Shown here one piece after another: positions 13,558 through 32,888 of a stretch of 34,185 nt of DNA. Each line of letters starts with the position of its first letter. Within the stretch, counting starts at the first letter, position 1. The position numbers and the translations under genes are program-made. Location of the stretch: assembly GCA_905479095.1 (NCBI GenBank), contig CAJQLD010000084.1, positions 1-34,185 on the forward strand, in the 5' to 3' direction. A model generated the notes under the pieces. The model saw only the letters and a program-made list of their open reading frames with translations, had not been told where the DNA came from and ran no database searches. This stretch comes from an uncultured Flavobacteriaceae bacterium. Lineage in GTDB: Bacteria; Bacteroidota; Bacteroidia; Flavobacteriales; Flavobacteriaceae.

Positions 13558-15138
13558 ATGGCAGAAGTAAAAGCAGCTGAAATATCAGCAATTTTAAAAC
13601 AACAACTTTCAGGTTTCGAATCAACAGCTTCTCTAGATGAGGTTGGAACCGTATTAACTGTAGGGGATGGTATTGTTCGTGCATACGGGCTTTCGAATGC
13701 TGAATATGGCGAACTTGTACAATTTGAAGGCGATCTTGAAGGGATTGTATTAAACCTTGAAGAAGACAATGTTGGAATCGTACTTTTAGGAGCTTCTAAT
13801 GTAATAAAGGAAGGTTCAATTGTAAAACGTACAGGACGTATTGCTTCGATCAACGTTGGGGAAGGAATTGTTGGTCGGGTGGTTGATACACTTGGCGCAC
13901 CTATTGACGGTAAAGGTCCTATTGAAGGAAAACTTTACGAAATGCCTTTAGAGCGTAAAGCACCAGGGGTTATTTTTCGTGAGCCTGTAACAGAGCCCTT
14001 ACAAACAGGGATCAAGTCGATTGATGCCATGATCCCAGTAGGACGTGGACAACGTGAGTTGGTCATTGGTGACAGACAAACGGGTAAAACAGCCGTTTGT
14101 ATTGATACCATTTTAAATCAAAAAGAATTTTACGATGCTGGGGAACCAGTCTATTGTATCTATGTTGCAGTTGGACAAAAAGCATCTACAGTCGCATTGA
14201 TCGCTAAAACATTAGAAGAAAAAGGCGCCTTAGCGTACACGACAATCGTCGCAGCGAATGCTTCGGATCCTGCACCAATGCAAGTGTATGCACCCTTTGC
14301 AGGTGCCGCTATTGGTGAGTTTTTCAGAGACACTGGTCGTCCAGCACTTATAGTATATGACGATTTATCAAAACAAGCGGTTGCTTACCGTGAAGTTTCT
14401 CTTTTATTACGTCGTCCACCAGGACGTGAGGCGTATCCAGGTGATGTATTTTACTTACATTCCCGTTTATTAGAGCGTGCAGCAAAAGTCATCAACAACG
14501 ATGAAATTGCAAAAGACATGAACGATTTACCAGATTCATTAAAGCCGATTGTAAAAGGTGGTGGTTCTTTAACAGCCCTTCCAATTATTGAGACACAAGC
14601 AGGAGATGTATCTGCCTATATTCCTACCAATGTAATTTCGATTACAGACGGTCAAATATTCTTAGATGGTGATTTGTTTAATTCAGGTGTTCGTCCAGCA
14701 ATTAACGTGGGTATTTCGGTATCTCGTGTGGGTGGAAATGCACAGATCAAAGCAATGAAAAAAGTATCTGGAACCTTAAAATTAGACCAGGCACAATTCC
14801 GTGAATTGGAAGCCTTTGCTAAGTTTGGATCTGATTTAGATGCAGTAACACTTAACGTGATTGAAAAAGGAAGACGTAACGTTGAAATTTTAAAGCAAGC
14901 ACAAAACGATCCTTTCAAAGTAGAAGATCAAGTTGCAATTATTTTTGCAGGATCTAAAAACTTGTTAAGAGCCGTGCCTGTCAACAAAGTAAAAGAATTT
15001 GAAACCGAATACATCGAGTTTTTAAAAGCCAAGCACAGCGATGTGTTAGCCACTTTAAAATCTGGTAAATTAACGGATGAAGTGACGGATACCTTAACAG
15101 CAGTTGCGAAAGAGTTATCAGGAAAGTATAAAGATTAA
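13558..15138 (+). CDS. atpA: F-type ATP synthase subunit alpha
   Basis: The non-catalytic nucleotide-binding subunit of F1. The 526 residues contain the beta-barrel N-domain, the Walker A motif GDRQTGKTA (from about residue 171), [15 protein letters not shown] with the Walker B region, and the alpha signature [14 protein letters not shown]. In most relatives atpG follows directly; here 436 bases carrying a four-helix-bundle gene with repeat ends intervene. Confidence 0.97.
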
Positions 15139-15139
15139 C

Positions 15140-15193
15140 AAGTTAGGAGTTTAGAGTGATGAGTTCAGAGTTATAAGCTCATTTCTCTAACTT
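15140..15193. repeat. Left end of the IVP cassette: nested hairpin of 14-base repeats
   Basis: Directly after atpA, AAGTTAG (15140-15146) can pair with CTAACTT (15187-15193), and within it ATGAG (15159-15163) with CTCAT, making a nested stem-loop. The left arm also holds two imperfect copies of a 14-base-period motif (15146-15163 and 15160-15177, 14 of 18 bases alike). Positions 15154-15177 match the reverse complement of the right end at 15546-15569 in 20 of 24 bases. Confidence 0.65.
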
Positions 15194-15216
15194 CATACTA
15201 TAATAGCTTAAAAAAA

Positions 15217-15552
15217 ATGTCTTTAAATAACAGTCCAATTCGAGTAAAGAGTTTTCAGTTTGCTTGCGAGATTGTTCATTTTACGGATAAATTAAAAGAA
15301 AATAAGGATTTTGAGTTAGCTTCTCAATTGCTAAAAAGTGGAACGAGTATTGGAGCTAATACAAGAGAAGCTCAAAGAGGAGTTAGTAAAAAAGACTTTA
15401 AAAATAAATTTGGAATTGCTTTAAAGGAAGCTGATGAGACCAAATATTGGTTAGAAATTCTTGAAGCTACAGGAAGAGAAGTTCCAACAGAAATGATGAA
15501 TAAGTGTGAAGAGTTAATAAGAATTTTAGTAGCAATCATTAAAAACTCATAA
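15217..15552 (+). CDS. Four-helix bundle protein (23S rRNA intervening-sequence protein family)
   Basis: A 111-residue, all-helical, basic protein. The segment ELASQLLKSGTSIGANTREA, then SKKDFKNKFGIALKEADETKYWLEIL, is typical of the IVP/four-helix bundle family (TIGR02436 type) first known from intervening sequences in 23S rRNA genes and related to the Avd accessory proteins of diversity-generating retroelements. Its cellular role is not established; a nucleic-acid-binding barrel is known for Avd relatives. Here it lies in the same direction between atpA and atpG, bracketed by inverted repeats (15154-15177 and 15546-15569), and its stop codon lies inside the right repeat. This suggests insertion as a cassette into the atp operon. 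The start is ATG at 15217. Confidence 0.9.
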   Translation: MSLNNSPIRVKSFQFACEIVHFTDKLKENKDFELASQLLKSGTSIGANTREAQRGVSKKDFKNKFGIALKEADETKYWLEILEATGREVPTEMMNKCEELIRILVAIIKNS

Positions 15553-15569
15553 CTCTGCACTCATAACTT
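15546..15569. repeat. Right end of the IVP cassette: inverted partner of the left repeat
   Basis: CTCATAACT occurs twice here with a period of 14 bases (15546-15554 and 15560-15568). The block is the inverse of 15154-15177 in 20 of 24 positions. It starts inside the last codons of the IVP gene and ends 5 bases before the atpG start codon. Confidence 0.65.
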
Positions 15570-15574
15570 GAAAC

Positions 15575-16429
15575 ATGGCAAATTTAAAAGAAATCCGAAA
15601 TAGAATAGCATCCGTATCTTCAACGATGCAGATTACAAGTGCCATGAAAATGGTATCGGCTGCTAAGTTGAAAAAAGCACAAGATGCCATCACAGCGATG
15701 CGTCCTTATGCTAATAAATTAACGGAGCTTTTACAAAACCTAAGTGCCACTTTGGACGCTGATTCTGGAAGTAAATATTCAGAACATCGCGAAATCAAAA
15801 ACGTACTTATTGTAGCCATTACTTCCAACAGAGGGTTGTGTGGTGCATTCAATTCTAATATTATCAAGAGAGCAACGGCAGTAGCGGAAAGTTACGATGC
15901 CAATGTATCTGTTGTAGCCATTGGAAAAAAAGCGAATGACGCCCTCTCAAAAAACTTTGAGATCATTTCCAATCAGAGTCCTGTTTATGACGATTTAACA
16001 TTTGACAATGTTGCTGCAATTGCAGAGATGCTCATGGAGCAATTTGAATCCAAAGCATTTGACAAAATTGAAGTTATTTATAATAAATTCAAAAATGCGG
16101 CGACTCAAGAAATCATGACCGAGCAGTTTTTGCCAATTGAGCCCTTAGAAGGGGATACCAATGGAAACCTCGATTATATTTTTGAACCGTCTAAAGAAGA
16201 GATTGTGGAAACCTTGATTCCAAAGTCGTTAAAGACACAATTGTACAAGTCCATACGTGACAGTTTTGCAAGCGAGCACGGCGCTCGAATGACGGCGATG
16301 CACAAAGCAACAGACAACGCCACGGAACTCAGAGATCAGCTTAAATTGACGTATAACAAAGCACGTCAAGCATCCATTACCAATGAGATTTTAGAAATTG
16401 TTGGTGGGGCAGAAGCTTTGAATGGCTAG
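15575..16429 (+). CDS. atpG: F-type ATP synthase subunit gamma
   Basis: The central rotor shaft of F1. The N-terminus ANLKEIRNRIASVSSTMQIT and the C-terminus LTYNKARQASITNEILEIVGG are the conserved coiled-coil ends of gamma, and SNRGLCGAFNSNI is the standard central motif. It has 284 residues. It starts 5 bases after the right repeat of the IVP cassette, so any hairpin formed by the cassette ends could affect its translation. It is the last atp gene here; beta (atpD) and epsilon (atpC) are not in the window, as usual in Bacteroidota. Codons 157-168 are duplicated as a scrap after the chitinase gene (18544-18580). Confidence 0.97.
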   Translation: MANLKEIRNRIASVSSTMQITSAMKMVSAAKLKKAQDAITAMRPYANKLTELLQNLSATLDADSGSKYSEHREIKNVLIVAITSNRGLCGAFNSNIIKRATAVAESYDANVSVVAIGKKANDALSKNFEIISNQSPVYDDLTFDNVAAIAEMLMEQFESKAFDKIEVIYNKFKNAATQEIMTEQFLPIEPLEGDTNGNLDYIFEPSKEEIVETLIPKSLKTQLYKSIRDSFASEHGARMTAMHKATDNATELRDQLKLTYNKARQASITNEILEIVGGAEALNG

Positions 16430-16454
16430 TGATTCGTTTTAAAATCATAACATT

Positions 16455-16483
16455 AAGAGCCTTGCATTTGTAAGGCTTTTTTT
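16455..16483 (+). terminator. Intrinsic terminator after atpG
   Basis: AGCCTT (16458-16463) pairs with AAGGCT (16472-16477), with possible extension inward, and a run of seven T follows. It lies 25 bases past the atpG stop. A near copy, with the same following bases TTATGGCATAAA, lies at 18588-18617. Confidence 0.85.
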
Positions 16484-16529
16484 ATGGCATAAATTTTGAT
16501 TATTATTTAGTTTAAATAAACCAAATCCA

Positions 16530-16607
16530 ATGACCTACCCAAAACAACATTATCACGAAGTATCCGCCTCAATCTTGGTAGTATTCCGAAGTTTTAAACT
16601 CAATTAA
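16530..16607 (+). pseudogene. Shrunken remnant of the outer-membrane barrel gene found intact at 18662
   Basis: The 400 bases between atpG and the chitinase contain no intact recognisable gene, but several pieces echo the region downstream of the chitinase. ATGACC at 16530 lies 47 bases past the atpG terminator, just as ATGACC of the intact barrel gene lies 45 bases past the second terminator. Bases 16592-16609 are identical to 19198-19215, the last codons (FKLN, stop) of the intact gene and the bases after it. The frame between them is open but only 26 codons long, so about 470 bases of the barrel would have been lost. A short functional peptide cannot be ruled out, but decay of a duplicate is the simplest reading. 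Confidence 0.6.
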
Positions 16608-16618
16608 AACCCACCAAT

Positions 16619-16661
16619 ATGTCGCTAACTTCAAATCAAAGACCTCTTTTAGTAGCGACAT
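16619..16661. repeat. Inverted repeat ATGTCGCTA / TAGCGACAT
   Basis: A perfect 9-base inverted repeat (16619-16627 and 16653-16661) around 25 bases, in the gene-free stretch ahead of the chitinase. It is followed by TTTTAAG, which gives no proper T-run. It could be a regulator-binding site, a leader hairpin or a scar of the rearrangement. Confidence 0.45.
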
Positions 16662-16690
16662 TTTAAGCATTCACAGTTGTAAGGATTTAT
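16658..16690 (+). pseudogene. Possible remnant of the lipoprotein gene found intact at 19254
   Basis: Bases 16661-16683 match 19291-19313, the lipobox region of the intact lipoprotein gene, in 19 of 23 positions (TTTTAAG-ATT--CAGTTGTAA). The piece lies in the same order after the barrel remnant as the intact genes do downstream. The match is short and the DNA AT-rich, so this is suggestive only. Confidence 0.35.
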
Positions 16691-16773
16691 ATGGATTCGT
16701 GTTTCAATACACTAAATTTTCTAAATTTTCAAAAACTGTTTATCCTTAAAATCAAGTTGTTTGTCTAAGTTTC

Positions 16774-16804
16774 TTGAATTCAAAACCAATTTAATATAAA
16801 TTCC
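16774..16804 (+). promoter_or_regulatory. Possible promoter of the chitinase gene
   Basis: TTG at 16774-16776 and TAAATTCC at 16797-16804 are 20 bases apart, the correct spacing, but the -7 box matches only the TAnnTT part of the consensus. It would give a leader of about 20 bases before the ATG at 16830. Confidence 0.3.
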
Positions 16805-16829
16805 AAATCAAACCCAAATTTTTATTAAA

Positions 16830-18548
16830 ATGAAATATTCTTTATTATTTTTTATTGTTTTTTTCTCTTTAAACAAAGTAGTTGCCCAATATGTTTTCCC
16901 TGATTGTTACAGCCCGTATGAATCTAGAGTATATACAGGAGGTGAAAAAGCGTCACTAAGTGGAATCAATTATACCGCCAGCAATTGGCTTAACACTCCA
17001 CCTCCAGGAACTGGTTGGACAAGCGACGGCCCATGTGGAAACCCAGACGATGCACTTGGGCCTAAGTATGCGGGTGATAAAAAAATCATAGGATATATGC
17101 CTACTTGGCAATCTGAATATGACTTTGATAAGTATGACCCATCAAAACTTACGCATGTAATCGTTTCTTTTTTAGAATTTAAAGGTATCGATGTTGGCGT
17201 TACTCATGACAATATGGATTATACTAGTAATGATTTTGTTAGCTCAATAGCATTCAATGAAAAATCTGTTCAAAGTGTCGATTCCATATTGACCCATTCA
17301 ACAACCAATTTACTTCAAAAATCAAGAGATGCAGATATTAAAGTATTAGTGGCTGTAGGTGGAGCTATTGATTATGGCTTTTTATGGTTAATGAATAAGT
17401 ATTATAACAATGATACTAAAATCACTGAAATTGCCCAACTAATGGTCGACTATGTTAACTCAAGTAACATTGATGGTGTTGATTTAGATATGGAGTGCTG
17501 GTGGGCAGACCATACAATAAATAAGATAACCGATCAAGGGGGTAGATCAAGAGGTAATAAGTGGGGTGGTTTAGATTCTGGTCCTGAAAATGCGGCTATT
17601 GGGATTACAAGATTAGCAAAAAAAATAAAAGAATTAAGCCCAGGTATAATTGTCTCTACGGTAGTTTTTGGAACAGGCTGGTATGGAAACAATTATGATG
17701 AGCAAATGGCAGATTATGTAGATTGGATAGGTATTTTCACTTATGATTTTACAGGTTCTTGGGATGCAACCCCTTTTGGTCCTCACGGAGCTCTATACAA
17801 GTTGCCTTTAGATAGTTATGAAAAACAAACTTTAGATAATCCAATCTACTCTACTGAAGAAGTCTGTGAGTTTTGGGTAGGAATAGCAGAGCCCGCTTGG
17901 AATCACGATGGGGGTTTTGATATAGAACGAAATAAACTCTGTATTGGTGCTCCGTTTTATGGGTATGACTTTTCAACCCATAAACCTAACGGCGGTAATG
18001 GTTATGAGTTCGAAAAATACGCTGATATTGTTGCAAAATACCCTAATGCACCGACATCTTATGATAGCAATACTCCTGGACAATTTAATGGAAATATTAA
18101 TGAAAACGGAGAAAATATTTTTTATGAAACACCTCTAAGAGCCAAGGCAAAAGTAGATTTTATTTATGATTATGGTCAACAAGGAATCATTATGTGGGAA
18201 CTAACGAATGACTTACCTTCAGATAATGAAAATAGTTTATTAAAGAGTATTCACGACCAAAAACAAAAACGTTCAGGAACCCTATCCGATGAAAATTTGA
18301 CAAACAATAAGTATAATAATACGCTTAAAGTAAGTTATTCTAATGGAACAATTAATTATTGGTACTCTAAGACCACGACCGAGCCCAGCTTGCATAATAA
18401 CTCCATAAGTATTTATGATATAATTGGTAGAGAGATAACGTCATTTAAAACGAATACTTCTAGGGGAGAATATTTTTTCCCGTTACCAAACGGAATACAC
18501 ATAGTAAAAGATAAATTTAACCAAACAGTTAAAATAATATCTTTTTGA
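16830..18548 (+). CDS. Secreted GH18 chitinase with chitin-binding module and T9SS sorting domain
   Basis: A 572-residue enzyme predicted to cut chitin outside the cell. A signal peptide (to about residue 19) precedes a small CBM5/12-like chitin-binding module (YTGGEKASLSG, NWLNTPPPG, residues about 25-75). The GH18 barrel follows from about residue 85 to 470 with the catalytic motif DGVDLDME, Glu222 being the expected proton donor. Residues from about 505 form a T9SS type A C-terminal domain (ISIYDIIGREI, LPNGIHIVKD, KIISF), so export should use the type IX system. It is monocistronic and lies between duplicated fragments of atpG, its terminator and the barrel gene, and its last codon and stop lie in the atpG-derived scrap. 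These facts suggest acquisition by transfer. The activity could be endo-beta-N-acetylglucosaminidase instead of chitinase. Confidence 0.88.
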   Translation: MKYSLLFFIVFFSLNKVVAQYVFPDCYSPYESRVYTGGEKASLSGINYTASNWLNTPPPGTGWTSDGPCGNPDDALGPKYAGDKKIIGYMPTWQSEYDFDKYDPSKLTHVIVSFLEFKGIDVGVTHDNMDYTSNDFVSSIAFNEKSVQSVDSILTHSTTNLLQKSRDADIKVLVAVGGAIDYGFLWLMNKYYNNDTKITEIAQLMVDYVNSSNIDGVDLDMECWWADHTINKITDQGGRSRGNKWGGLDSGPENAAIGITRLAKKIKELSPGIIVSTVVFGTGWYGNNYDEQMADYVDWIGIFTYDFTGSWDATPFGPHGALYKLPLDSYEKQTLDNPIYSTEEVCEFWVGIAEPAWNHDGGFDIERNKLCIGAPFYGYDFSTHKPNGGNGYEFEKYADIVAKYPNAPTSYDSNTPGQFNGNINENGENIFYETPLRAKAKVDFIYDYGQQGIIMWELTNDLPSDNENSLLKSIHDQKQKRSGTLSDENLTNNKYNNTLKVSYSNGTINYWYSKTTTEPSLHNNSISIYDIIGREITSFKTNTSRGEYFFPLPNGIHIVKDKFNQTVKIISF

Positions 18549-18580
18549 ATCGAAAGTATTCGATAAAATTGAAGTTATTC
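18544..18580 (+). pseudogene. Fragment of a duplicate atpG
   Basis: These 37 bases match atpG 16043-16079 with 5 differences and would encode FESKVFDKIEVIH against FESKAFDKIEVIY in the intact gene. Three of the differences fall at silent codon positions, which points to divergence as functioning coding sequence, for example in a related strain, before it was broken. About 370 bases of the atpG tail are missing before the second terminator. The chitinase stop codon (18546-18548) lies inside the fragment. Confidence 0.75.
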
Positions 18581-18587
18581 ACACAAA

Positions 18588-18617
18588 TAAGAGCCTTACA
18601 GATGTAGGGCTTTTTTT
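18588..18617 (+). terminator. Intrinsic terminator after the chitinase, copy of the atpG terminator
   Basis: AGCCTTACA and TGTAGGGCT pair with one G-T wobble, followed by seven T. The sequence and its downstream bases TTATGGCATAAA correspond to the atpG terminator at 16455-16483. Confidence 0.8.
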
Positions 18618-18661
18618 ATGGCATAAAGTTTGATCCATTTGTAAAATCAAAATCATTTTTT

Positions 18662-19213
18662 ATGACCTTCAAAAAACACGTATTGACCCTTCTTTTGGTA
18701 GTGGCAACCCTCACTAGTTTTGCTCAAAATAAAAAAGGCGATATTTCACTCTCCATAACCGCCTCTCCGTTTCCAACGACCTTGTCCGGCAAACACGATT
18801 TTGGCATTATAGCCAAGGCAGGCTTAGAATTTCATGTCTCACAAAAAGTTTCGTTTCAAGGCAGTTTTTTTACATCCAATAACGTGCTTTTTAAGAATGA
18901 TAGTGGCGTTAGCATCAGCTCTTATGGGTTTGTGCCAACCGTTCAATATTATTTCATCAATAAACCAAAGCTTACTCTTTTTGGGCAATTGGGCTACGGT
19001 TTTGGTTTTGAAGATTTGACCCGAAATTTTGGTACTATCGAGAATAGCGCATTGACTATTTTTAGCGTGGGTGTGGGTGTTAATTATAAATTAAATAACA
19101 AGTTACATTTACAGCTCCATTTGCCATATTTCAATGCTCAAAACATCACCATCAACGAAACCTCTTCTGCAGGTGTTGCTGTATTTTTAGGCTTTAATTT
19201 TAAACTCAATTAA
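18662..19213 (+). CDS. Small outer-membrane beta-barrel protein
   Basis: A 183-residue exported protein. The signal peptide (MTFKKHVLTLLLVVATLTSFA) is followed by alternating hydrophobic strands, for example FVPTVQYYFINKPKLTLFGQLGYGFGFED and VGVGVNYKLNNKLHLQLHLPY, and a final strand GVAVFLGFNFKLN. This is the form of the OMP_b-brl/porin-like eight-strand barrels common in Bacteroidota. Its function is unknown. A decayed duplicate of its two ends lies upstream of the chitinase (16530-16607). A lipoprotein gene follows after 40 bases. Confidence 0.8.
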   Translation: MTFKKHVLTLLLVVATLTSFAQNKKGDISLSITASPFPTTLSGKHDFGIIAKAGLEFHVSQKVSFQGSFFTSNNVLFKNDSGVSISSYGFVPTVQYYFINKPKLTLFGQLGYGFGFEDLTRNFGTIENSALTIFSVGVGVNYKLNNKLHLQLHLPYFNAQNITINETSSAGVAVFLGFNFKLN

Positions 19214-19253
19214 AAAATACGTAAGTTTATACTTAAATAAAACACATCTCCAA

Positions 19254-19760
19254 ATGAAGCAAAACCACCTTTTTATTTTAGGAATTATATTTTTAAGTAT
19301 TTTCAGTTGTAAAAGCGCCAAAGAATCAGTTTTACAGTTTCAAACGACCGCTCCATTCGAAATGGTCGAACCGTATTACAACGCATGGGTTGGAGGGATT
19401 GAAAGTGCAGGTTCTGGAGTCAATGTGTTTTTACCTTTAAAAGAGGATCTCGGACGCGTGACGGTTGATAGCATTCATTTTAGGGGCGAAAAATCGGCGG
19501 TTGTTAAAAGAGACCAACTGCTTATTGGACGCTTTAAATATTCAAGGGTTCACCCAAAAAAGCTAATTATGAGCTCCAATCCACACGAAGAATATGGCAA
19601 TACACTGCCATCAAAAACGGACCGATCTCCCTTTAAGTTGGTAAACAACCAGTGTGTGATTAGCTATAGAGTCAATGACAAACGGCTCTATTATAAAGTA
19701 CTAAATCTTAAAAGTCTTCGAGAGATTGCCTATCCCTCAGCGCCCCCCCAAAAGCAATAA
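19254..19760 (+). CDS. Lipoprotein of unknown function
   Basis: A 168-residue protein with a clear lipoprotein signal (MKQNHLFILGIIFLSIFSCKS, Cys19) and a soluble domain rich in beta strands and charged residues (PYYNAWVGGIESAGSGVNVF, GRVTVDSIHFRGEKS). It is likely anchored in the outer membrane or periplasm. I do not recognise the domain. It follows the barrel gene closely and may share its transcript. The C-terminus AYPSAPPQKQ looks unstructured. Confidence 0.75.
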   Translation: MKQNHLFILGIIFLSIFSCKSAKESVLQFQTTAPFEMVEPYYNAWVGGIESAGSGVNVFLPLKEDLGRVTVDSIHFRGEKSAVVKRDQLLIGRFKYSRVHPKKLIMSSNPHEEYGNTLPSKTDRSPFKLVNNQCVISYRVNDKRLYYKVLNLKSLREIAYPSAPPQKQ

Positions 19761-19818
19761 ACTTCAATTATAGTTTGTTCGTTAAAATGTGTATTTTTAT
19801 AAGATAAAAGAGATTCAA

Positions 19819-21291
19819 TTGAGCGTCCTAAAAACACTATACAAACAAACTTTCATTTACGGCTTGGCAACAGTGGTTCCCCGCATGTTAAGTTTCCTTT
19901 TGGTGCGTTTACATACGGATAAATCAGTGCTTGAAAACGTATCGGATTATGGAGATGTGTCTCTAGTTTACTCTTATTTTGTACTCTTTAATGTCGTGAT
20001 TGCTTACGGCATGGAAACTGCCTTTTTTCGTTTTTTCAATAAAGATTCGGACCAAACAAAAGTTCTGAGTACTGCTGCCATGTCTATTTTAGGAACCTCC
20101 TTAGGGTTTTTAGGACTTGGGTTGGTGTTTCAGCAACAGATAGCGGAAGTTACCCACATCAATGTTAATTATGTTGGCTTAGTTATTTGGACCTTGTTTT
20201 TAGATGCCTTGGTCATTATTCCGTTTGCCTTCTTGAGAGCACAAGGGAAGCCTGTTAAATACACCGTTGTTAAACTTACCAATGTGATTGTTAACCTTGG
20301 TCTAAATCTCTTTTTATTACTTTATTTAAAATCACTGTCGGAACACAACAGCATTTGGGATTCAATTTATATCCCCAATTTTGAAGTGAATTATATCTTT
20401 ATTGCCAATCTAATTGCGAGTGGAATAACTCTGATATTGCTTTTTCCTTTTTACTTTAAAATCAAGTACAAGATTGATATTATTCTTTGGAATAAAATGC
20501 TGAGGTATGCATTACCAGTCTTAGTCGCAGGGATTGCATTTTCCATCAATGAAACCTTTGACCGGGTGTTGTTAGAGCGATTACTTCCAGAGTCTATTGC
20601 CAAAACGTCCATTGGTATGTATTCGGCCTGTTATAAATTAGCTCTTTTTATGATGTTGTTTGCAACGGCGTATCGTTTGGGAATTGAGCCCTTCTTTTTC
20701 AGTCAATCCAAAACTAAAGATGCCACCAAAAATTATGCAAAAATCCTTGAATTTTTTGTGATCTGTGGCGCCCTTATTTTGTTGGTTGTAGTTGTCTTTA
20801 TTGATGTTTTAAAACTAATTCTCATTCCAAATGAAGCCTATTGGGAAGCCATGAAAGTCGTGCCAATACTATTATTAGCGTACCTTTTTCTGGGGATCTA
20901 TCACAACTTATCCGTTTGGTATAAAATCACTGATCGCACCAAATATGGAGCCTATATCTCGGTTGTTGGCGCTACAATTACGCTTTTAATAAACCTGATT
21001 TTCATCCCATCGTTCAGTTATATGGCGTCTGCTGTAGCCACCTTAGCAGCCTATTTTTCAATGACCTTACTATCGTATTATTTTGGTCGAAAACACTACC
21101 CAATTCCGTACAACCTAAAAAAAATAGGACTGTATTTAGTGCTCGCTATTTCCTTATCAGTGCTTTCATTTTATCATTTTAGAGCGCAGTATTTAATAGG
21201 ATCTGGGATGGTTATAACCCTAGTATTGATTATTTGGACGAATGAAAAAGCAACGATTAAACAATTTTTAAAACCCTCTCATGACCATTAA
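19819..21291 (+). CDS. Polysaccharide flippase (Wzx-like, MATE/MOP superfamily)
   Basis: A 490-residue integral membrane protein with about 12-14 hydrophobic segments. The N-terminus [23 protein letters not shown] and ETAFFRFF near residue 70 are typical of flavobacterial lipopolysaccharide or oligosaccharide flippases, which move undecaprenyl-linked glycans across the inner membrane. The frame is open to a GTG at 19789, but I prefer TTG at 19819 because it begins directly at the conserved SVLKTLYKQ and because the upstream stretch looks like promoter DNA (TTTG at 19773, TATTTTTA at 19792). The 3' end overlaps dut by 11 bases. It is distant from the polysaccharide genes at the start of the window and belongs to a conserved housekeeping cluster. 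Confidence 0.85.
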
Positions 21292-25646: not shown

Positions 25647-26585
25647 TTACGGAATATTTTTGATCAACATCCATGCAGCACGATCCTGTGCTTTTCTGAT
25701 TTTAAAAAGGGCTTTTTCTGCTTCTTTACGAGTTTCGAAACTCTCGTAAACAACTTGGTGTAGTCCAAATCTGTTTTTACCGATTTTTCGCGCATTAAAC
25801 CCTAACGCTTTTAGCTGATTTAGTTTTTTGTTACAGTTGGCTTCAATTCTAAAAGCACCCGCAACAACGTGAAAATTTCCGCTTTGCTTTTTTAAATTAA
25901 CCATGACCGCAGGCAATGGGTTTTCAATGACAAAGGTTGCTTCTTGTATTTTGTTATCTAAGGTTGCAGTTGCGGTATCAATGGCTAAATTATTCTGACG
26001 CTCAATTTGAGTCAGGTACAAATTAGATCCAATTGAACCACTCAACCCAAGGGCAAGTACCGCAATAGCGGCATATTTCATGTATTGATTGAATTTAGAT
26101 CGCGTTGGAGACAAGGCGATAGCACCAGTGGCTTCTAGTTTTTCAACAATTGCTTGATGTGCTTGTCGTTCAATTGATGGCGATACAAAACCAGCTAACC
26201 CAAAAGATTCAGTCAAGTAATTAAGAGTTTCCGACGGAGCAAACATCACTTTTCCTTCTTTAGAAGTGGATAATTCGCCAATATTTTTGAATTCAATAGT
26301 TTCCCCTTTTTCTAAACTCGATTTAAGTTGTGAAACTTGTGTTTCAATTTTGCGAGTCGCTGCTTCGTATGGAATGTTTTCAACCTCTGAAATATAGGAG
26401 GCTAAAAGACCATCGTTAGATTGCAGCTGTGCATTAAATGACAACCGTTTTTGTGGCGGATAAAAATCATTGGTGGCCTCATTAATCTTTGCCGAAACAG
26501 GATGCGATAAAAAGGCTCCGAAATTTGGAAGTGTTACGCATTCATAACGGTAAAGTAAATCGCTTATGTACTGATTTAGTTGCAT
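25647..26585 (-). CDS. HU-CCDC81 and SPOR domain protein
   Basis: A 312-residue bitopic inner-membrane protein. The N-terminus has two tandem prokaryotic HU-CCDC81-type domains (LNQYISDLLYRYECVTLPNFG, and about residues 60-130 with IEFKNIGELSTSKEGKVMF). A transmembrane helix (YAAIAVLALGLSGSIGSNLYL, about residues 170-190) and a C-terminal periplasmic SPOR domain (FHVVAGAFRIEANCNKKLNQ) follow. SPOR domains bind denuded septal peptidoglycan; HU-type domains may bind DNA or act in assembly, so the protein could link the nucleoid or cytoplasmic partners to the division wall. This is inference from the family architecture, which is common in Bacteroidota. It is divergent from the surface operon at 26763. 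Confidence 0.88.
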   Translation of the reverse strand: MQLNQYISDLLYRYECVTLPNFGAFLSHPVSAKINEATNDFYPPQKRLSFNAQLQSNDGLLASYISEVENIPYEAATRKIETQVSQLKSSLEKGETIEFKNIGELSTSKEGKVMFAPSETLNYLTESFGLAGFVSPSIERQAHQAIVEKLEATGAIALSPTRSKFNQYMKYAAIAVLALGLSGSIGSNLYLTQIERQNNLAIDTATATLDNKIQEATFVIENPLPAVMVNLKKQSGNFHVVAGAFRIEANCNKKLNQLKALGFNARKIGKNRFGLHQVVYESFETRKEAEKALFKIRKAQDRAAWMLIKNIP

Positions 26586-26605
26586 AAACCAAAGTTATAA
26601 TTTTT

Positions 26606-26637
26606 TTTGTAAAAACAATTATATTTCTCTACTTTTG
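26606..26637 (+). promoter_or_regulatory. Strong Bacteroidota-type promoter of the three-gene surface operon
   Basis: TTTG (26606-26609) and TACTTTTG (26630-26637) are separated by exactly 20 bases, matching the consensus TTTG-N19-21-TAnnTTTG. The start should be near 26644, giving a leader of about 120 bases before the ATG at 26763, long enough for regulation. Confidence 0.7.
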
Positions 26638-26762
26638 TGTAGTTAGAGTTTTTATTGTGTTAAACTTCAACTTTCACCTTCCTAAGTATACTCTTTGTTA
26701 ATTTATTTATGCGAATGTGTTAAGCGCTTTATACAAGTGTTTTTTCAGTTTTCAATAATTAA

Positions 26763-27287
26763 ATGAATTTACGAATGCGCATTAAAGAGAAGTTTTTATC
26801 CAGCACCAGAAATCTGCTATTCATTTTAGCGCTGTTTTTGTTTACCACTTCCGTCTATGCCCAGTTACACCATCAATCCATTGGAGCGTTAGGAAGCAGC
26901 CAAGTCCGTGGTAATTATTCAATCTCTCAAACAGTCGGGCAATCGTCTGTCATTGGATCCTCTGAATTAACTTCAACATCTGTTATACAAGGGTATCAAC
27001 ATCCCATGTTTAATAACTATACAGTACAATCTATTTCAAATTTAGAGGGGATTAAATTTTATCCAAATCCATTTTCAACCCAACTCAACTTTGAGTTTCA
27101 GTCGGAGTATGATCCCATTCAAATTACAATTATAGATATCCTGGGTCGAAACGTATTGACAACCACAGTGCAAACCTCAAATAAATCTATTTTATTAGAC
27201 CTCCCTTTTCTTTCTGACAGTGAATATATCATTTCGCTGATTGGTCAAAACCTTAATTTCCAAACTAAAATCATAAAGAAACTTTGA
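26763..27287 (+). CDS. Small T9SS-sorted surface protein
   Basis: A 174-residue exported protein. The signal peptide ends near residue 37 (TTSVYAQ), followed by a Ser/Gly/Gln-rich segment (GNYSISQTVGQSSVIGSS, VIQGYQHP) common at the front of small flavobacterial sorted proteins. A full T9SS type A sorting domain (about 95-174) follows, with GIKFYPNPFSTQLNF, ITIIDILGRNVL and the final TKIIKKL. About half of the mature protein is therefore the sorting signal, leaving little room for an enzyme. It heads an operon; its stop overlaps the TTG start of the next gene. Function unknown; a scaffold or anchor for the large protein downstream is possible. Confidence 0.82.
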   Translation: MNLRMRIKEKFLSSTRNLLFILALFLFTTSVYAQLHHQSIGALGSSQVRGNYSISQTVGQSSVIGSSELTSTSVIQGYQHPMFNNYTVQSISNLEGIKFYPNPFSTQLNFEFQSEYDPIQITIIDILGRNVLTTTVQTSNKSILLDLPFLSDSEYIISLIGQNLNFQTKIIKKL

Positions 27288-28342
27288 AAAATTTAATCAC
27301 AATTATTAGTGTTTTACTTATTTGGACAACAGGGTCAGCACAAGAAATTTCTCTTGAAACAGGACTCAATTTTACTTCATACGACTATGAAAACTCTATG
27401 GGGGTCTCCAACGAAAATGTGACCTCCTCTTCGGGGCTTTATTCTCGTTTAGGACTGGCGTCTTTCCGATTGCTCAAACAAAAAATTAACTACGGAATTA
27501 GCTTTCAACAGTTTAATGCAACCGGAGGAGATGGCTATGAAAATTATGATTGGAAAACGAATTATCTAGGAGGGTTTCTTCAGTATCAAAAACCAATTTA
27601 TAAAAACCTATTAGCGATTCAAGCAAGTGCAGACTTCCTTTATTTAGCGTCGGGGAAACAAAAAATTGGAGGCGAAACATTTAGCCTAAATGATGAAAAA
27701 GAAGTCAATGGATTTTGGCTTAACCCCAGTATAGGGCTTTTCACCAAAATCATTGATTCAAATACTTTTGGGCTGGACCTTGGTTATAATTTTTCGATGG
27801 CGATAAAACCGAACGATCAAGGATCGGAATCCCTTTCGTATGTATCCAATCAACTCTATTTTAGAATTCATTTGAAAACAAACAAACAAGACGCTCAAGA
27901 TCATGAACACAACAACTCTAACGTTGGTGCTCCAGGGAATCAAGTAAACATGGCCCAAGAAATCCAAACTTTAAAATTGGCCATAAATTCACTTAAACAA
28001 CCTTCCAAACAAATACCAGAAGTCACGGTCTTTTTTAATCTAGATTCTTATAAAATTGATAAAGATCAATATCAAAAACTGGAAGCTCTCGCCGATTATT
28101 TACGAAACAATACAGCGACAGCAGCAACCCTTGTTGGGTATGCCGATGACACGACAGGAAATACAGAGTCCAATCAAACACTCTCTGACAACAGGGCGCT
28201 AAGTGTTCGGGAATTTTTAATTTCTAAGCAAGTAAACCCAACACAATGTACCGTCAAAGGGGCAGGTGAAACCAGTCAGTTCAATCAAAAAATTTATGAT
28301 TCTAATCGAAGGGTTCTAATCGTTTTAACGCAAAAACAGTAA
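27284..28342 (+). CDS. Outer-membrane barrel with C-terminal OmpA peptidoglycan-binding domain
   Basis: A 352-residue protein starting at a TTG that overlaps the previous stop (TTGA). The signal peptide (LITIISVLLIWTTGSAQ) leads to a roughly 200-residue beta-barrel (EISLETGLNFTSYDYEN, INYGISFQQF, FGLDLGYNFSM), a linker (HEHNNSNVGAPGNQ) and an OmpA-like domain from about residue 245. That domain has TVFFNLDSYKIDKDQYQKLE and SDNRALSVREFL, where the conserved Asp and Arg bind peptidoglycan, and ends RRVLIVL. It should tie the outer membrane to the cell wall. It lies between a T9SS-sorted protein and a giant adhesin-like protein, with gaps of -4 and 2 bases, which suggests all three work together at the surface. 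Confidence 0.87.
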   Translation: MKNLITIISVLLIWTTGSAQEISLETGLNFTSYDYENSMGVSNENVTSSSGLYSRLGLASFRLLKQKINYGISFQQFNATGGDGYENYDWKTNYLGGFLQYQKPIYKNLLAIQASADFLYLASGKQKIGGETFSLNDEKEVNGFWLNPSIGLFTKIIDSNTFGLDLGYNFSMAIKPNDQGSESLSYVSNQLYFRIHLKTNKQDAQDHEHNNSNVGAPGNQVNMAQEIQTLKLAINSLKQPSKQIPEVTVFFNLDSYKIDKDQYQKLEALADYLRNNTATAATLVGYADDTTGNTESNQTLSDNRALSVREFLISKQVNPTQCTVKGAGETSQFNQKIYDSNRRVLIVLTQKQ

Positions 28343-28344
28343 GT

Positions 28345-31300
28345 ATGCAAAATATATTTCAACCTCTAAAATTCGTTCTATTTTTATGTCTTTTCAATGC
28401 TACATTTATAGCGGCTCAAGACCAACGCAGCGGAATTAGTTATCAGGCCCTGATCTTAAATACAAGCGAAGTAGAACTTCCGGGCGCCAATCAAAAAGAC
28501 AGTCCATTAAGAAATAAGGAGATCTGTCTTCAATTTTCACTCATTGACGAAACAGGGAATTATGAATATATAGAGCATGTCAGAACCACTACTGATTCTC
28601 AAGGAATGGTTAATTTGGTAATTGGTACAGGCACTCCAGTTGGCGGTAGTCAGTGGAGTGATATCGAATGGTCTGCTGCGATGAAATCCCTAAAAGTCGA
28701 TTTTGATATTACGGGACAGTGCAACGCTTTCGAAGCATTAAGCTTACAACAACTCACAGCCGTTCCGTTTGCATTATATGCGCCAGGAGCTGGAACTGAA
28801 GGGCCTCAAGGCGAAGCTGGCGAGCCAGGTGAAGATGGTGAAGCAGGTGAAGACGGTGAAGACGGTGAAGCAGGTGTTTCAGGCGAGGAAGGACCATCGG
28901 CCTATGAGATATGGCTAGATCTTGGCAACACAGGAACAGAACAAGAATTTATAGACTCACTTAAAGGAGCTGATGGTGAAGATGGTGATGACTTTGCCTT
29001 TGAACTTCCTGACGGAGTTGAAAATGGAGACTACCTACAATGGATATGGAATGGCACAAGCTGGGACATTACTGTTATTACACCCGATGATACTAGCATT
29101 ATTCTAATTTCATCCACTGGAACCAATAATCAATCGGTTTGTGCCAATGTTGAGATTGAACCAATTTTTTATTCATTTTCTGAAGTAGTTTCTGGAATAA
29201 CGGTGATTGGACTGCCATCAGGACTCACTTTTGAACTTACAAACAATGAATTGGTCATCTCTGGAAAAATTACCCAGCAACTATTGCAAACAAGTACTTT
29301 TGAGTACCAAGTCCAAGTGCCACAGTCGAATGGTCCGAATAGAGTTGCCTATGGAAAAATCACATTCGAACCAGCTCCTCAAATTCTGCTAGATCTTGGC
29401 GAGCAAAACGTAAGCTCATGCCTTCTCGAGCCCATAGAACCCATAGAGTACCTTATCGAAAATTCTCAATCAAGCGCAACGATTACAGGCTTGCCCTCTG
29501 GAATTACCTCGTCGATTGTTGGGAATCGGATCATCATTCAAGGCATCCCCGACAGCACTCTAATCGACGGTTCCTCGTACATTTACACTATCGAGACCGA
29601 TCCAGGAACTTGTGCTGCCGTTTCAATCACTGGAACCCTAAGTTTTACTGATTGTAGTACATGTTATCCAACTGCTGAAGCTGGAGCTGATGCAACAATT
29701 TGTTCTGGTGAGATCTTTCAAATAGCAGGAAACGTGGGGAATGCAACCAATATTTTTTGGACAACTAGTGGAAATGGAACTTTTGATAATTCCAACTCCC
29801 CTAATCCTAAATATGTCCCAACAAATGAAGATTTTAATTCTGGTTCAGTAACCCTTACTGTAAAAGCTCAAAATGACTCATGTGGGAGTCTTGAAGAGCT
29901 AGAGGATTCTATGGTATTAAGTATTTCTGATTGTTCTTCAATTGATGTAACCTTAATTAACAATATTGAAGCCATAGTTTTTGCAAATGCTGTAACCTTT
30001 GGCGCAGAAATAGTAACTGATAATATTCAAAATATAGCTTCAGCGGGGCTTTGTTATAATACTACTGGTGGACCGACAACCTTAGATCCAAAAGTAGAGC
30101 AAGCCTATTATGATGGCGGATTCTGGAAAGAAGTCCCTCCTATTTTTGAGCTGGATTTGGTTGGAGTTCCTGTAGACTCATTATTTGTAAGGCCTTTTGT
30201 GACCACAATTGGTGGGGATACCGTTTATGGTAATCAAATTGCAATAGCTAACGAAGACCCAAACCGAAATCATATTTATAATTTTTCTACGGATTCAGGA
30301 GATTTTAGCCCTGAAAACTATACAATCACTACTACTTCTGAAATCACATTTCAAAATATAATCTCTTTAAGAAATTTAAATTGGGAATATGGCTCTCCAA
30401 ACTACAGTAATATAGTGATTGTTAACTTTCCTAGTTTGGATAGGATTCAGGGAAATTTGATTTTAAATTATGAATACTCACTAAGGGAATTCAACGCACC
30501 TAAACTAAGGGAAATTTCAAATAGGCTAAATGTGGGTTTTAATAATATTGAAAATTTTTTATTGCCAAATTTATTGTCCATTGCAGGTGGGGGTTCTATT
30601 TCTCGAAATGAAAATTTAGAGGAGATAGATTTAGATAGTTTGGAAGAAATAGGGAGCAGTTTTGCGATAAATTACAATAATCTTCTTTCTGTTATTAACC
30701 TAAATAATTTTTACAAAGGTAGACGGTATGATGGATATCATGGTGGAGATTTAACAATCAACAATAATTCAAATTTGAAAACTATTAATTTAGGGACTGG
30801 CTTGGATTTAGAAACTAAAATACAAATTTTCAATAATGAAAAATTAGAAGAAATAAATGTTAATAATATTACAAATGTAGTGTCAGGTGAAATAAATATT
30901 CAAAATAATGAGACATTAAAAAGCGTTAGTTTTAATAGTTTAAAATCTTCAAATGATGTTAAAGATAAAGATTATTGGCATGAACCTTACATTTTAATTA
31001 GTAACAATAAATTGTTAGAGGAAATTAATGCGCCAAGTCTAGAAGATTTTTATAAAATAACCATAAATAATAATGACTCTCTTTCTGAAGTAATTTTCCC
31101 TGAACTTACAACTGTTCATAAAAACTTAAGTGTTCAAAATAATGGCAGCCTTTCTAAGATTCACATGCCAAAATTAGAGACAACGGGTGATAAAGTCTAC
31201 AATCAAAATTCTTTTTATTTAAATTCTAATCAAACTCTAAATGACATTAATTTTGAATCATTACTTAAGGTGTATACAAGTCTAACAGTTCAAAACAACC

Positions 31301-31734
31301 AACAATTAGATTTAAATGACTTCCCTTGTAAGCTCTTTGTGCTAGAGAATGATGGACTTGATTGTACGTTTGGAGATATTAATGTGTCAAATAATTTAGA
31401 TGATACCTATTGTTTCCAAGACCCTAGTTTGATTCCACCAATTGACATACAAACCGTTGCTGCATTTAATATCAGCTCTGACCAAGCACAAACAGCTACT
31501 AACATCACCTCATACACTAAAATGAAATCTAGAGGTATTGTTTGGAGTACATCCGCGAACCCTACAATTGATGATGTTAATGATTTTTCATCTGAAAATG
31601 GAAGTCTAAACGGACCATATGATTCTTATATGTATAATCTTCAACCTAACACAACCTATTATTTTAGAGCTTATGGTGAGGATTGTAATGGAGTGTTTTA
31701 TGGAAATGAGTTAGAGTTTATTACGTTACCATAA
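28345..31734 (+). CDS. Large multidomain surface protein with collagen-like and leucine-rich-like repeats
   Basis: A 1129-residue exported, probably surface or secreted protein. In order: signal peptide (to about residue 24); a conserved N-domain (GISYQALILNTSEVELPGAN) typical of flavobacterial tail-fibre-like proteins; collagen-like GXY triplets (residues 153-185) with SAYEIWLDLGNTGTEQEF, a motif shared by bacterial collagen-like proteins; Ig-like or PKD-like modules (about 250-540); repeats of about 22-27 residues with the form I-NN--L--I--P-L (about 680-1010), like receptor L-domain or Ecm33 leucine-rich repeats; and a final fibronectin-like domain ending EFITLP. No T9SS sorting domain is evident, unlike its operon partner at 26763. 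An adhesin or matrix protein is most likely. The leucine-rich part appears more AT-rich than the N-terminal half. Confidence 0.8.
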   Translation: MQNIFQPLKFVLFLCLFNATFIAAQDQRSGISYQALILNTSEVELPGANQKDSPLRNKEICLQFSLIDETGNYEYIEHVRTTTDSQGMVNLVIGTGTPVGGSQWSDIEWSAAMKSLKVDFDITGQCNAFEALSLQQLTAVPFALYAPGAGTEGPQGEAGEPGEDGEAGEDGEDGEAGVSGEEGPSAYEIWLDLGNTGTEQEFIDSLKGADGEDGDDFAFELPDGVENGDYLQWIWNGTSWDITVITPDDTSIILISSTGTNNQSVCANVEIEPIFYSFSEVVSGITVIGLPSGLTFELTNNELVISGKITQQLLQTSTFEYQVQVPQSNGPNRVAYGKITFEPAPQILLDLGEQNVSSCLLEPIEPIEYLIENSQSSATITGLPSGITSSIVGNRIIIQGIPDSTLIDGSSYIYTIETDPGTCAAVSITGTLSFTDCSTCYPTAEAGADATICSGEIFQIAGNVGNATNIFWTTSGNGTFDNSNSPNPKYVPTNEDFNSGSVTLTVKAQNDSCGSLEELEDSMVLSISDCSSIDVTLINNIEAIVFANAVTFGAEIVTDNIQNIASAGLCYNTTGGPTTLDPKVEQAYYDGGFWKEVPPIFELDLVGVPVDSLFVRPFVTTIGGDTVYGNQIAIANEDPNRNHIYNFSTDSGDFSPENYTITTTSEITFQNIISLRNLNWEYGSPNYSNIVIVNFPSLDRIQGNLILNYEYSLREFNAPKLREISNRLNVGFNNIENFLLPNLLSIAGGGSISRNENLEEIDLDSLEEIGSSFAINYNNLLSVINLNNFYKGRRYDGYHGGDLTINNNSNLKTINLGTGLDLETKIQIFNNEKLEEINVNNITNVVSGEINIQNNETLKSVSFNSLKSSNDVKDKDYWHEPYILISNNKLLEEINAPSLEDFYKITINNNDSLSEVIFPELTTVHKNLSVQNNGSLSKIHMPKLETTGDKVYNQNSFYLNSNQTLNDINFESLLKVYTSLTVQNNQQLDLNDFPCKLFVLENDGLDCTFGDINVSNNLDDTYCFQDPSLIPPIDIQTVAAFNISSDQAQTATNITSYTKMKSRGIVWSTSANPTIDDVNDFSSENGSLNGPYDSYMYNLQPNTTYYFRAYGEDCNGVFYGNELEFITLP
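28801..28899 (+). repeat. Collagen-like GXY triplets, 9-base coding repeats
   Basis: Eleven consecutive GXY triplets are encoded, with near-identical units based on GGTGAAGAC/GATGGTGAA and GGTGAAGCA, so the DNA is a tandem 9-base array. Such arrays may change length by slippage without breaking the frame. Confidence 0.8.
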
Positions 31735-31787
31735 ATTTAGGGATATGTTTGTAGGGTTGCTTATATTTACAGCAAACATAGCCCCCT

Positions 31788-32888
31788 ATGAACTCATCTC
31801 AACTCCTATATGCGCTTGCATTGCAGGCCGTGCCTAATATTGGCGACATCACGGCGAAAAAACTAATTCACCACTGTGGCAGCTCCGAGGCTGTTTTTAA
31901 AGAAACCAAAACCAACCTTTCAAAAATAGAAGGGATTGGCACACAGACCATCAAACATCTACATGAAACAAAACATCTTAAAGCGGCCGAAAAAGAGCTT
32001 AGTTTTATGGAAAAACACAAGATTCAAGGGCTTTATTTTGAAGATACCCAGTATCCATTTAAATTAAAACACTGTATTGATGGCCCCATTGTATTGTTTC
32101 AAAAAGGGAACATTAAATGGGACCATACACCCATTATTAGTATTGTTGGCACCCGAAAAATTACGACCTACGGCACCTCGCAATGTGAGAAAATCGTAGA
32201 AACGCTTGCCGAGTTCAATCCCATTGTTGTGTCTGGATTTGCTTATGGAACTGATATTGTGGCTCATAAATCGGCTTTAAAATATCAGCTTCAAACCGTG
32301 GGTTGCATGGCGCAAGGCCTTCAAAACACCTATCCAAAACAACATCTCAAATTTCGACACTTAATAGAAAACCAAGGTGGTTTTGTGACTGATTTTTGGA
32401 GTACTGCTGTGATGGATCCTTCAAATTTTTTAAGACGGAATCGGCTTATCGCAGGATTGAGCGAAGCCACAATTGTCATTGAATCTGCCGAAAAAGGTGG
32501 AAGCTTGGTAACGGCTTCCATGGCCCTTGATTACAACAGAGAGGTGTTTGCACTTCCCGGTCGAAGTACCGACAGCCAAAGTCAAGGGTGTAATAATTTA
32601 ATTAAAACAAAAAGTGCGCACTTGGTTTCTACGCCGGCCGACATTCCGTATATTTTAAATTGGTCGCTCGAAACAACCAAAAAAGTGGTGCAAAAAAAGT
32701 TGTTTGTTGAACTTGATACCGATGAAAAAATTATTTTCAACTATTTAAAGAAAGAAGGAAAATCTGTTTTAGATACCATTGCCATCGCTTGTGAATTCCC
32801 AACGTCCAAAGCGGCTTATTTATTATTAAATCTGGAACTGAAAGGGGTTACAAGACCACTTCCCGGAAAACAATTTGAGCTAATTTAA
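31788..32888 (+). CDS. dprA: DNA-processing protein DprA (Smf)
   Basis: Protects incoming single-stranded DNA during natural transformation and loads RecA on it. The 366 residues have an N-terminal helix-hairpin-helix region (AVPNIGDITAKKLIHH and IEGIGTQTIKHL), the Rossmann-like DprA core with VGTRKITTYG, VVSGFAYGTDIVAHKSAL, NFLRRNRLIAGLSEATIVIE and KGGSLVTASMALDYNREVFALPG (long segments cited by their key parts), and a C-terminal winged-helix. All core residues appear intact. It is convergent with trpS, overlapping by 4 bases. Its presence is consistent with uptake of foreign DNA, but it is also widely conserved in non-competent species. Confidence 0.95.
   Translation: MNSSQLLYALALQAVPNIGDITAKKLIHHCGSSEAVFKETKTNLSKIEGIGTQTIKHLHETKHLKAAEKELSFMEKHKIQGLYFEDTQYPFKLKHCIDGPIVLFQKGNIKWDHTPIISIVGTRKITTYGTSQCEKIVETLAEFNPIVVSGFAYGTDIVAHKSALKYQLQTVGCMAQGLQNTYPKQHLKFRHLIENQGGFVTDFWSTAVMDPSNFLRRNRLIAGLSEATIVIESAEKGGSLVTASMALDYNREVFALPGRSTDSQSQGCNNLIKTKSAHLVSTPADIPYILNWSLETTKKVVQKKLFVELDTDEKIIFNYLKKEGKSVLDTIAIACEFPTSKAAYLLLNLELKGVTRPLPGKQFELI

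Follow-up and report, generated by a model that had tools for sequence, protein, structure and literature searches.

According to the portion of a 2017 report considered here (PMC5635113), genes are known to be gained through recombination at the core genes that flank them. For E. coli conjugation, the cited part of another report describes single crossovers of circles leading to lacZ duplications of 109–950 bp; 56 of 60 clones gave a PCR product diagnostic of a partial duplication, and 14 were sequenced (PMC3240628). In the same account the linear, one-sided process is usually paired with deletions and rare, and partial duplications are attributed to circles. The linear process has been proposed, in the section cited from a third report, for the shifted 3′ ends of Type VI effector genes in Vibrio (PMC5361080).

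The locus described here lies in a window (the whole stretch of DNA analysed) of 34,185 nt from a marine flavobacterium, and consists of a GH18 chitinase gene flanked on both sides by partial copies of its own neighbours. It shares with the E. coli single-crossover duplications, as the cited part presents them (PMC3240628), foreign DNA beside a partial second copy of a homologous segment; those were a laboratory event, whereas the copies here are diverged and eroded. As in the hotspots outlined in the cited part of PMC5635113, variable genes lie between conserved ones, with no recognised mobile element and with recombination in the flank, but here the flank also left duplicated gene scraps, and the comparison covers 12 genomes, of one genus, in which the interval is spanned. 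The likeness to the Vibrio Type VI effectors, within the cited section of PMC5361080, is in the proposed upstream homologous anchor, the entry of a new gene and the downstream movement of the old 3′ end; the difference is in the genes and the phylum, and in that the remnant here is of a core gene with an intact upstream copy. A direct partial duplication of one homologous segment is present on both sides of the insert, its pieces eroded, and recombination in the flanking core gene is present, with a breakpoint near 14697. The locus is a fresh instance of known recombination-driven gene gain.

Layout of the locus and its duplicate pieces

The left-hand order is intact atpG (ATP synthase gamma chain, 15575–16429), a terminator-like hairpin with the TTATGGCATAAA box (16455–16490), scraps of a beta-barrel gene and a scrap of a lipoprotein gene, all on the + strand, as are the features that follow. 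The barrel scraps are the post-hairpin spacer with the first ~7 barrel codons (16484–16551, ATG at 16530) and the FKLN-stop end of the gene (16592–16609), and the lipoprotein scrap is a spacer with the start of the gene up to the lipobox (16612–16683); the first and last of these are supported by the control-window test given below. After the chitinase gene (16830–18548, 572 aa; PF00704, 1.8e-31), the right-hand order is an atpG scrap of codons 157–168 (18544–18579), starting in the last bases of the chitinase, stop codon included, then a hairpin and spacer of G009 type by identity to that relative (18586–18640), the whole outer-membrane beta-barrel gene (18662–19213; PF13505, 7.6e-9; 94% aa identity to G009) and the whole lipoprotein gene (19254–19760; aa identity 95% to G009 and 89% to G006), for which a Pfam search gave no match. 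No integrase gene is listed between atpG and the barrel gene, where the longest ORF, the chitinase aside, is 64 aa and overlaps the chitinase.

The preliminary description had placed collinear duplicate pieces around the chitinase, and a repeat search recovered every piece it named. The hairpin block, which includes the TTATGGCATAAA box, matches between 16445–16500 and 18579–18634 (84% over 56 nt), the atpG piece between 16043–16078 and 18544–18579 (32/36), the barrel FKLN-stop piece between 16592–16609 and 19198–19215 (18/18), and the lipoprotein start with its lipobox between 16661–16682 and 19291–19312 (86%). The atpG scrap had earlier been given as 37 bases with five mismatches, three of them silent; these counts give way to those of the repeat search, but the three silent differences stand, together with one Ala-to-Val change as read from the sequence. 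Within its own genome, the right hairpin block found its partner at E 1.5e-11 and, as the next match, 41 nt at 83% (E 4.8e-5); a dispersed repeat was rejected, since the block is without another strong copy there. The atpG scrap, at E up to 0.001, matches atpG alone in the own genome (1.6e-5; 16 of 90 candidates scored).

Homologous targets for the left scraps numbered 15, namely 14 relatives plus the right copy in the window itself. As controls served 400 stretches of real DNA, drawn mostly from the same genomes; these control windows are 850 nt each, unmatched in length to the targets (267–1867 nt). For the spacer with the barrel start (16484–16585), 0/400 controls did as well for six of the 15 targets (G001, G002, G004, G005, G009 and the right copy), and for the barrel end with the lipoprotein start (16560–16700) the same held for 12 of 15. 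The barrel start by itself gave 0/400 only for G001 and G004, with 4/400 for G002 and G005 and 64/400 for the right copy; the lipoprotein start by itself (16612–16700) gave 0/400 only for G006 and G009, with 1/400 for G010 and the right copy. The FKLN-stop query (16575–16625) gave 0/400 for 9/15 targets. When shuffled sequences were used, the spacer and barrel-start piece gave 0/200 for 6/15 targets and 1/200 for the right copy, and the barrel-stop-to-lipoprotein piece gave 0/200 for 11/15. Positions 16484–16551 align to the spacer and barrel start of G001, G002, G004 and G005 with 49–54 matches over 64–72 nt (0/200 shuffles), and 16592–16683 aligns to the barrel stop, spacer and lipoprotein start of relatives. 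From 16690 up to the chitinase, the shuffle test gave no significant alignment to the targets.

The FKLN letters also fit an unrelated gene, antisense, in several relatives (23/23 in G016, E 3.3e-5), so that this piece counts only by its position in the order. Two observations would favour reading the left pieces as chance matches in AT-rich DNA: this match, and the limitation of the 0/400 result to two relatives apiece when the barrel start or the lipoprotein start is taken by itself. The collinear sets, however, beat all 400 real-DNA windows for the 6/15 and 12/15 targets given above, and chance is an extremely improbable source for them. By these tests, the individual left scraps lean on their order, and as a set they do not look like chance. 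Two earlier proposals are supported: that the pieces form a collinear duplicate, and that its erosion was complementary, the barrel being lost on the left and atpG on the right.

The hairpins were named terminators by appearance. When folded as DNA, 63 of 200 shuffles were as good as the left hairpin and 8 of 200 as good as the right. A terminator scan remained at shuffle level (2 found vs 1.9 expected) and lists the left hairpin on the minus strand only. The left stem-loop letters are identical to those of G001; the right region is 99% identical to G009 over 115 nt (18586–18700), and 95.9% over 315 nt. An RNA element was rejected, a search of 14500–20000 against Rfam at gathering score having given no match.

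The interval and the chitinase in related genomes

The genus set comprised 18 genomes, the window's included. Thirteen have atpG, and 12 carry atpG and the lipoprotein gene on one contig (spanned genomes). In all 12, atpG and a lipoprotein–flippase pair bound the interval, the content of which differs within the genus: a chitinase, a TPR gene, a multi-gene insert with TPR, and a barrel gene that is present or absent. If the chitinase is an insertion, sister species had been predicted to show atpG, hairpin, barrel and lipoprotein genes in direct succession, and four of the 12 (G001, G002, G005 and G009) have exactly this empty order. Between atpG and the barrel gene, G000 carries the chitinase and G004 a TPR-protein gene. 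The G010 interval is ~5 kb long and holds TPR, CAAX-protease-like and other ORFs, together with a different barrel gene and what remains of the end of the usual one. The barrel gene is absent from five spanned genomes (G003, G007, G012, G013 and G015), all of which except G015 show an FKLN-stop-like scrap after the hairpin. The barrel protein had no match among 42 non-genus genomes. Of 17 loci in other genera, 7 have atpG followed by the lipoprotein and flippase genes, and on this basis the barrel gene too seems to have been acquired, in an earlier event. At 12 of the 17 loci, one or both of the lipoprotein and flippase genes are near atpG.

The nearest relative found for the chitinase is 62% identical and belongs to another genus. 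At E 1e-40, two of 397 family genomes match, the window's own included, and relatives at 46–52% were found at 17 loci in Aquimarina, Fulvivirga and others. The own genome has a second, stronger GH18 match on a different contig. The chitinase appears complete, as the length of its C-terminus is within one residue of that of the 62% relative; its stop codon overlaps the opening bases of the atpG scrap. The letters TTTGA are common to the chitinase end and atpG. Examination of the other 17 genus genomes, several of which are incomplete, gave no chitinase beyond a 119 nt piece in G006 (97.5%), joined to barrel codon 34 through a 4-nt overlap (GCCT). This piece is at a contig edge, and the atpG of G006 is on another contig. 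A viral origin of the chitinase was considered and rejected: a scan of viral_contigs with the chitinase, which reaches close relatives only, gave no relative.

Lineages of the two flanks

Sites informative between G010 and G009 place the best left breakpoint at 14697, the G010-like share being 19% of 227 sites before it and 85% of 155 after it. The G010-like tract (14697–16450) covers the end of atpA, a four-helix (23S_rRNA_IVP) gene and atpG, the last of which is 98% identical to G010, 91% to G001 and 88% to G009 and G006. The flippase gene is 96–97% identical to G009 and G006 and 80% to G010, and the atpG and flippase trees disagree. Right of the chitinase, identity to G009 is 90–99% when measured every 600 bases, beginning at 18601 and continuing until the G009 contig ends. 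On the other side, 12.0–13.8 kb is 98–100% identical to G009, making the G010-like tract an island; G009 is the only match on that side, and G010 is ~72–85% identical to the window over most of its length. By these identities, the flanks are alleles of different lineages, 14697–16450 being G010-like and the right side G009/G006-like.

The silent differences had earlier been read as a hint of a copy from a related strain rather than of a recent local duplication, and the G010-like atpG and G009-like right side agree with this. The related-strain idea therefore stands, but the choice of the right-hand atpG scrap as the foreign side was probably the wrong way round: because the right flank and 12.0–13.8 kb are G009-like and the intact atpG is G010-like, the donor side was probably the left, with its intact atpG, rather than the scrap on the right. 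The scrap itself is too short for typing (33/36 to G009; 32/36 to G000, G001 and G006), and the left lipoprotein scrap fits no single lineage clearly.

Other relatives contribute to the mosaic. G001 is also near (about 94%) at 14.4–15.6 kb, patches of the window are 97–100% identical to it, and beyond the contig of G009 it is the closest genome compared. At 11.8–13.0 kb, the window is closer to G010 than to G006. Judged from the G001-like patches, and from G006 not being nearest at 11.8–13.0 kb, exchange between lineages is widespread. Immediately to the right of the junction, G009, which is without the chitinase, is for the most part nearer to the window than G006, which has the chitinase piece.

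Reconstructed history and related layouts

We consider it likely that homologous recombination around a foreign chitinase produced the locus, a partial duplication with copies from two lineages. All evidence comes from assemblies, from which the integration is reconstructed. The GH18 chitinase would have entered between atpG and the lipoprotein–flippase genes by homologous exchange with a related lineage's DNA, and one segment would have been left in two allelic forms, one on each side of it. Before erosion, the duplicated segment would have measured about 1.1 kb, from codon 157 of atpG to the lipobox of the lipoprotein gene. The homologous anchor may have been in this segment or in the atp genes. 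Where the chitinase DNA met the two ends of the segment, homology was presumably slight or absent; the chitinase end and atpG have TTTGA in common. The left barrel gene and the right atpG piece, both of them mostly gone, would have been worn down by later deletions, tolerated because one working copy of each suffices; redundant copies were kept. The chitinase probably came before the G010-like atpG exchange, because G006 has a chitinase piece but G009-type atpG; the G010-like tract would then have been swapped in later in this genome, and the scar is most likely layered. As the window right of the junction is mostly nearer to G009 than to G006, the order of events is uncertain.

The duplication fits either a circular donor with a single crossover or a linear one joined illegitimately at one end. 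It is a real possibility that, as first proposed, the chitinase and a fragment running from atpG to the lipoprotein gene arrived on a circle, which may have integrated by a single crossover, with erosion afterwards. The left copy stops in the lipoprotein gene, at the lipobox, and the right copy starts in atpG, at codon 157; these are the two ends of one segment and match what a single crossover would leave, and circles in E. coli gave partial duplications in this way (PMC3240628, part cited). No vector trace is present, however, the ORFs between the copies being at most 64 aa apart from the chitinase, and the atpG allele switch requires a second recombination. The alternative is homology-facilitated illegitimate recombination in one step. 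Here linear DNA from a G010-like cell, with its atpG, the decayed remains of a barrel region and the chitinase, would have used homology in atpA as an anchor, and its other end would have been joined illegitimately within the resident atpG; the right scrap would be the tail of that resident gene. One lineage on the left and another on the right is what this would produce, the shared TTTGA is within the 3–10 bp reported for the process in the cited part of PMC3240628, and a similar model has been put forward for effector arrays in Vibrio in which displaced 3′ ends are retained (PMC5361080, section cited). We nevertheless place it on the unlikely side: experimental products are generally an insertion with a deletion of like size, and rare (PMC3240628, same part), the G006 chitinase piece with G009-type atpG needs a later reversal, and G010 itself holds different genes in the interval.

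Two further explanations were considered. A genome of 102 contigs and about 90% completeness may be a metagenome assembly, and the lineage switch falls at the chitinase, as it would if two co-occurring strains had been joined in one contig. Such a chimera is distinctly improbable, since G009-like DNA on both sides of the G010-like tract requires two switches, the scraps are left unexplained, and G006 too has a chitinase piece beside the barrel gene. The same order of pieces would result if the stretch from atpG to the lipoprotein gene had been duplicated locally in tandem and the chitinase had gone in between the copies afterwards, and in three other genera the end of atpG is found in short tandem arrays. 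Against this, the right hairpin–barrel start is 99% identical to that of G009 over 115 nt, and the hairpin block is 84–89% identical to the left copy. A simple duplication is disfavoured by the lineages of the two copies and is very unlikely, although later overwriting of the left copy could hide such a history. Returning to recombination between lineages around a foreign chitinase, the locus is a real recombination scar of a known kind.

A comparable layout was found in G042, which belongs to another family. There, intact atpG and a hairpin are followed by 2.4 kb with four ORFs and then by an atpG 3′ end and a hairpin (78% over 146 nt); in both G042 and the window, the stop codon of the last cargo ORF is within the first bases of the atpG piece. 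A family survey for atpG 3′ scraps covered 299 genomes, 297 of them with a match at E up to 1. The 63 family genomes with more than one match among the matches listed were searched again; below E 0.001, the second hits comprised five distant paralogues (38–42% identity) and no scrap. In an order survey of 137 genomes, G042 had the one clear downstream atpG scrap; other second rows were a paralogue (G018), a split gene (G478), a second contig (G447) and a weak match (G213). By these two limited surveys the atpG-scrap layout is rare, the queries being the last 70 atpG residues, which miss scraps of codons 157–168 and the tandem ends in G019, G030 and G036. The chitinase here and G042 are two unrelated cases of cargo followed by an atpG piece. 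That foreign genes in Flavobacteriales preferentially insert just after atpG, each insert retaining part of the resident atpG directly behind its last cargo gene, is nonetheless quite unlikely.

The locus is a readable fossil of the entry of a polymer-degrading gene into a small marine flavobacterium genome with no mobile element seen, the route being recombination of ordinary core genes between diverged lineages. Half-eroded scraps of neighbouring genes can orient such recombination events, and the atpG–lipoprotein interval is a place to seek strain-specific genes in this genus.

Repeats of the atpG 3′ end in other genomes

In G042, a member of another family, the extracted locus L125 carries, from atpG to 2.4 kb downstream, an intact atpG, a hairpin, four ORFs and then a second atpG 3′ end with a hairpin; the stop codon of the last of the four ORFs falls within this atpG scrap. 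The atpG 3′ end is also repeated directly after atpG in three other genera, as tandem arrays with units of 51–54 nt (L127 3032-3261, L128 3502-3668 and L126 3362-3498).

Hairpins and the G010 insert

The left lipoprotein scrap contains a hairpin at 16619-16661 with an outer stem of nine pairs. The fold of 16586-16690 has a z of -2.6, with equally good folds in 3 of 200 shuffles. The insert at the atpG hairpin of the congener G010 (L049 2850-7340) carries a palindrome (AAGCTGAACTCGTTTCAGCTT), a CAAX-protease-like gene and an ORF of 68 aa; this ORF contains a double-glycine motif and gave no match to Pfam. The right junction of the insert is similar to that of the one in G004, of the same genus.

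The four-helix gene and exchange with relatives

A 23S_rRNA_IVP four-helix gene (15217-15552) lies between atpA and atpG. Its presence is patchy within the genus, and the copy in G023, from another genus, is 94% identical to that of the window, compared with 82% for atpG; the gene therefore probably moves independently. In 600-base steps, positions 1-2400, 25801-28800 and 31201-32400 of the window show 97–100% identity to the congener G001, and these patches are further signs of exchange.
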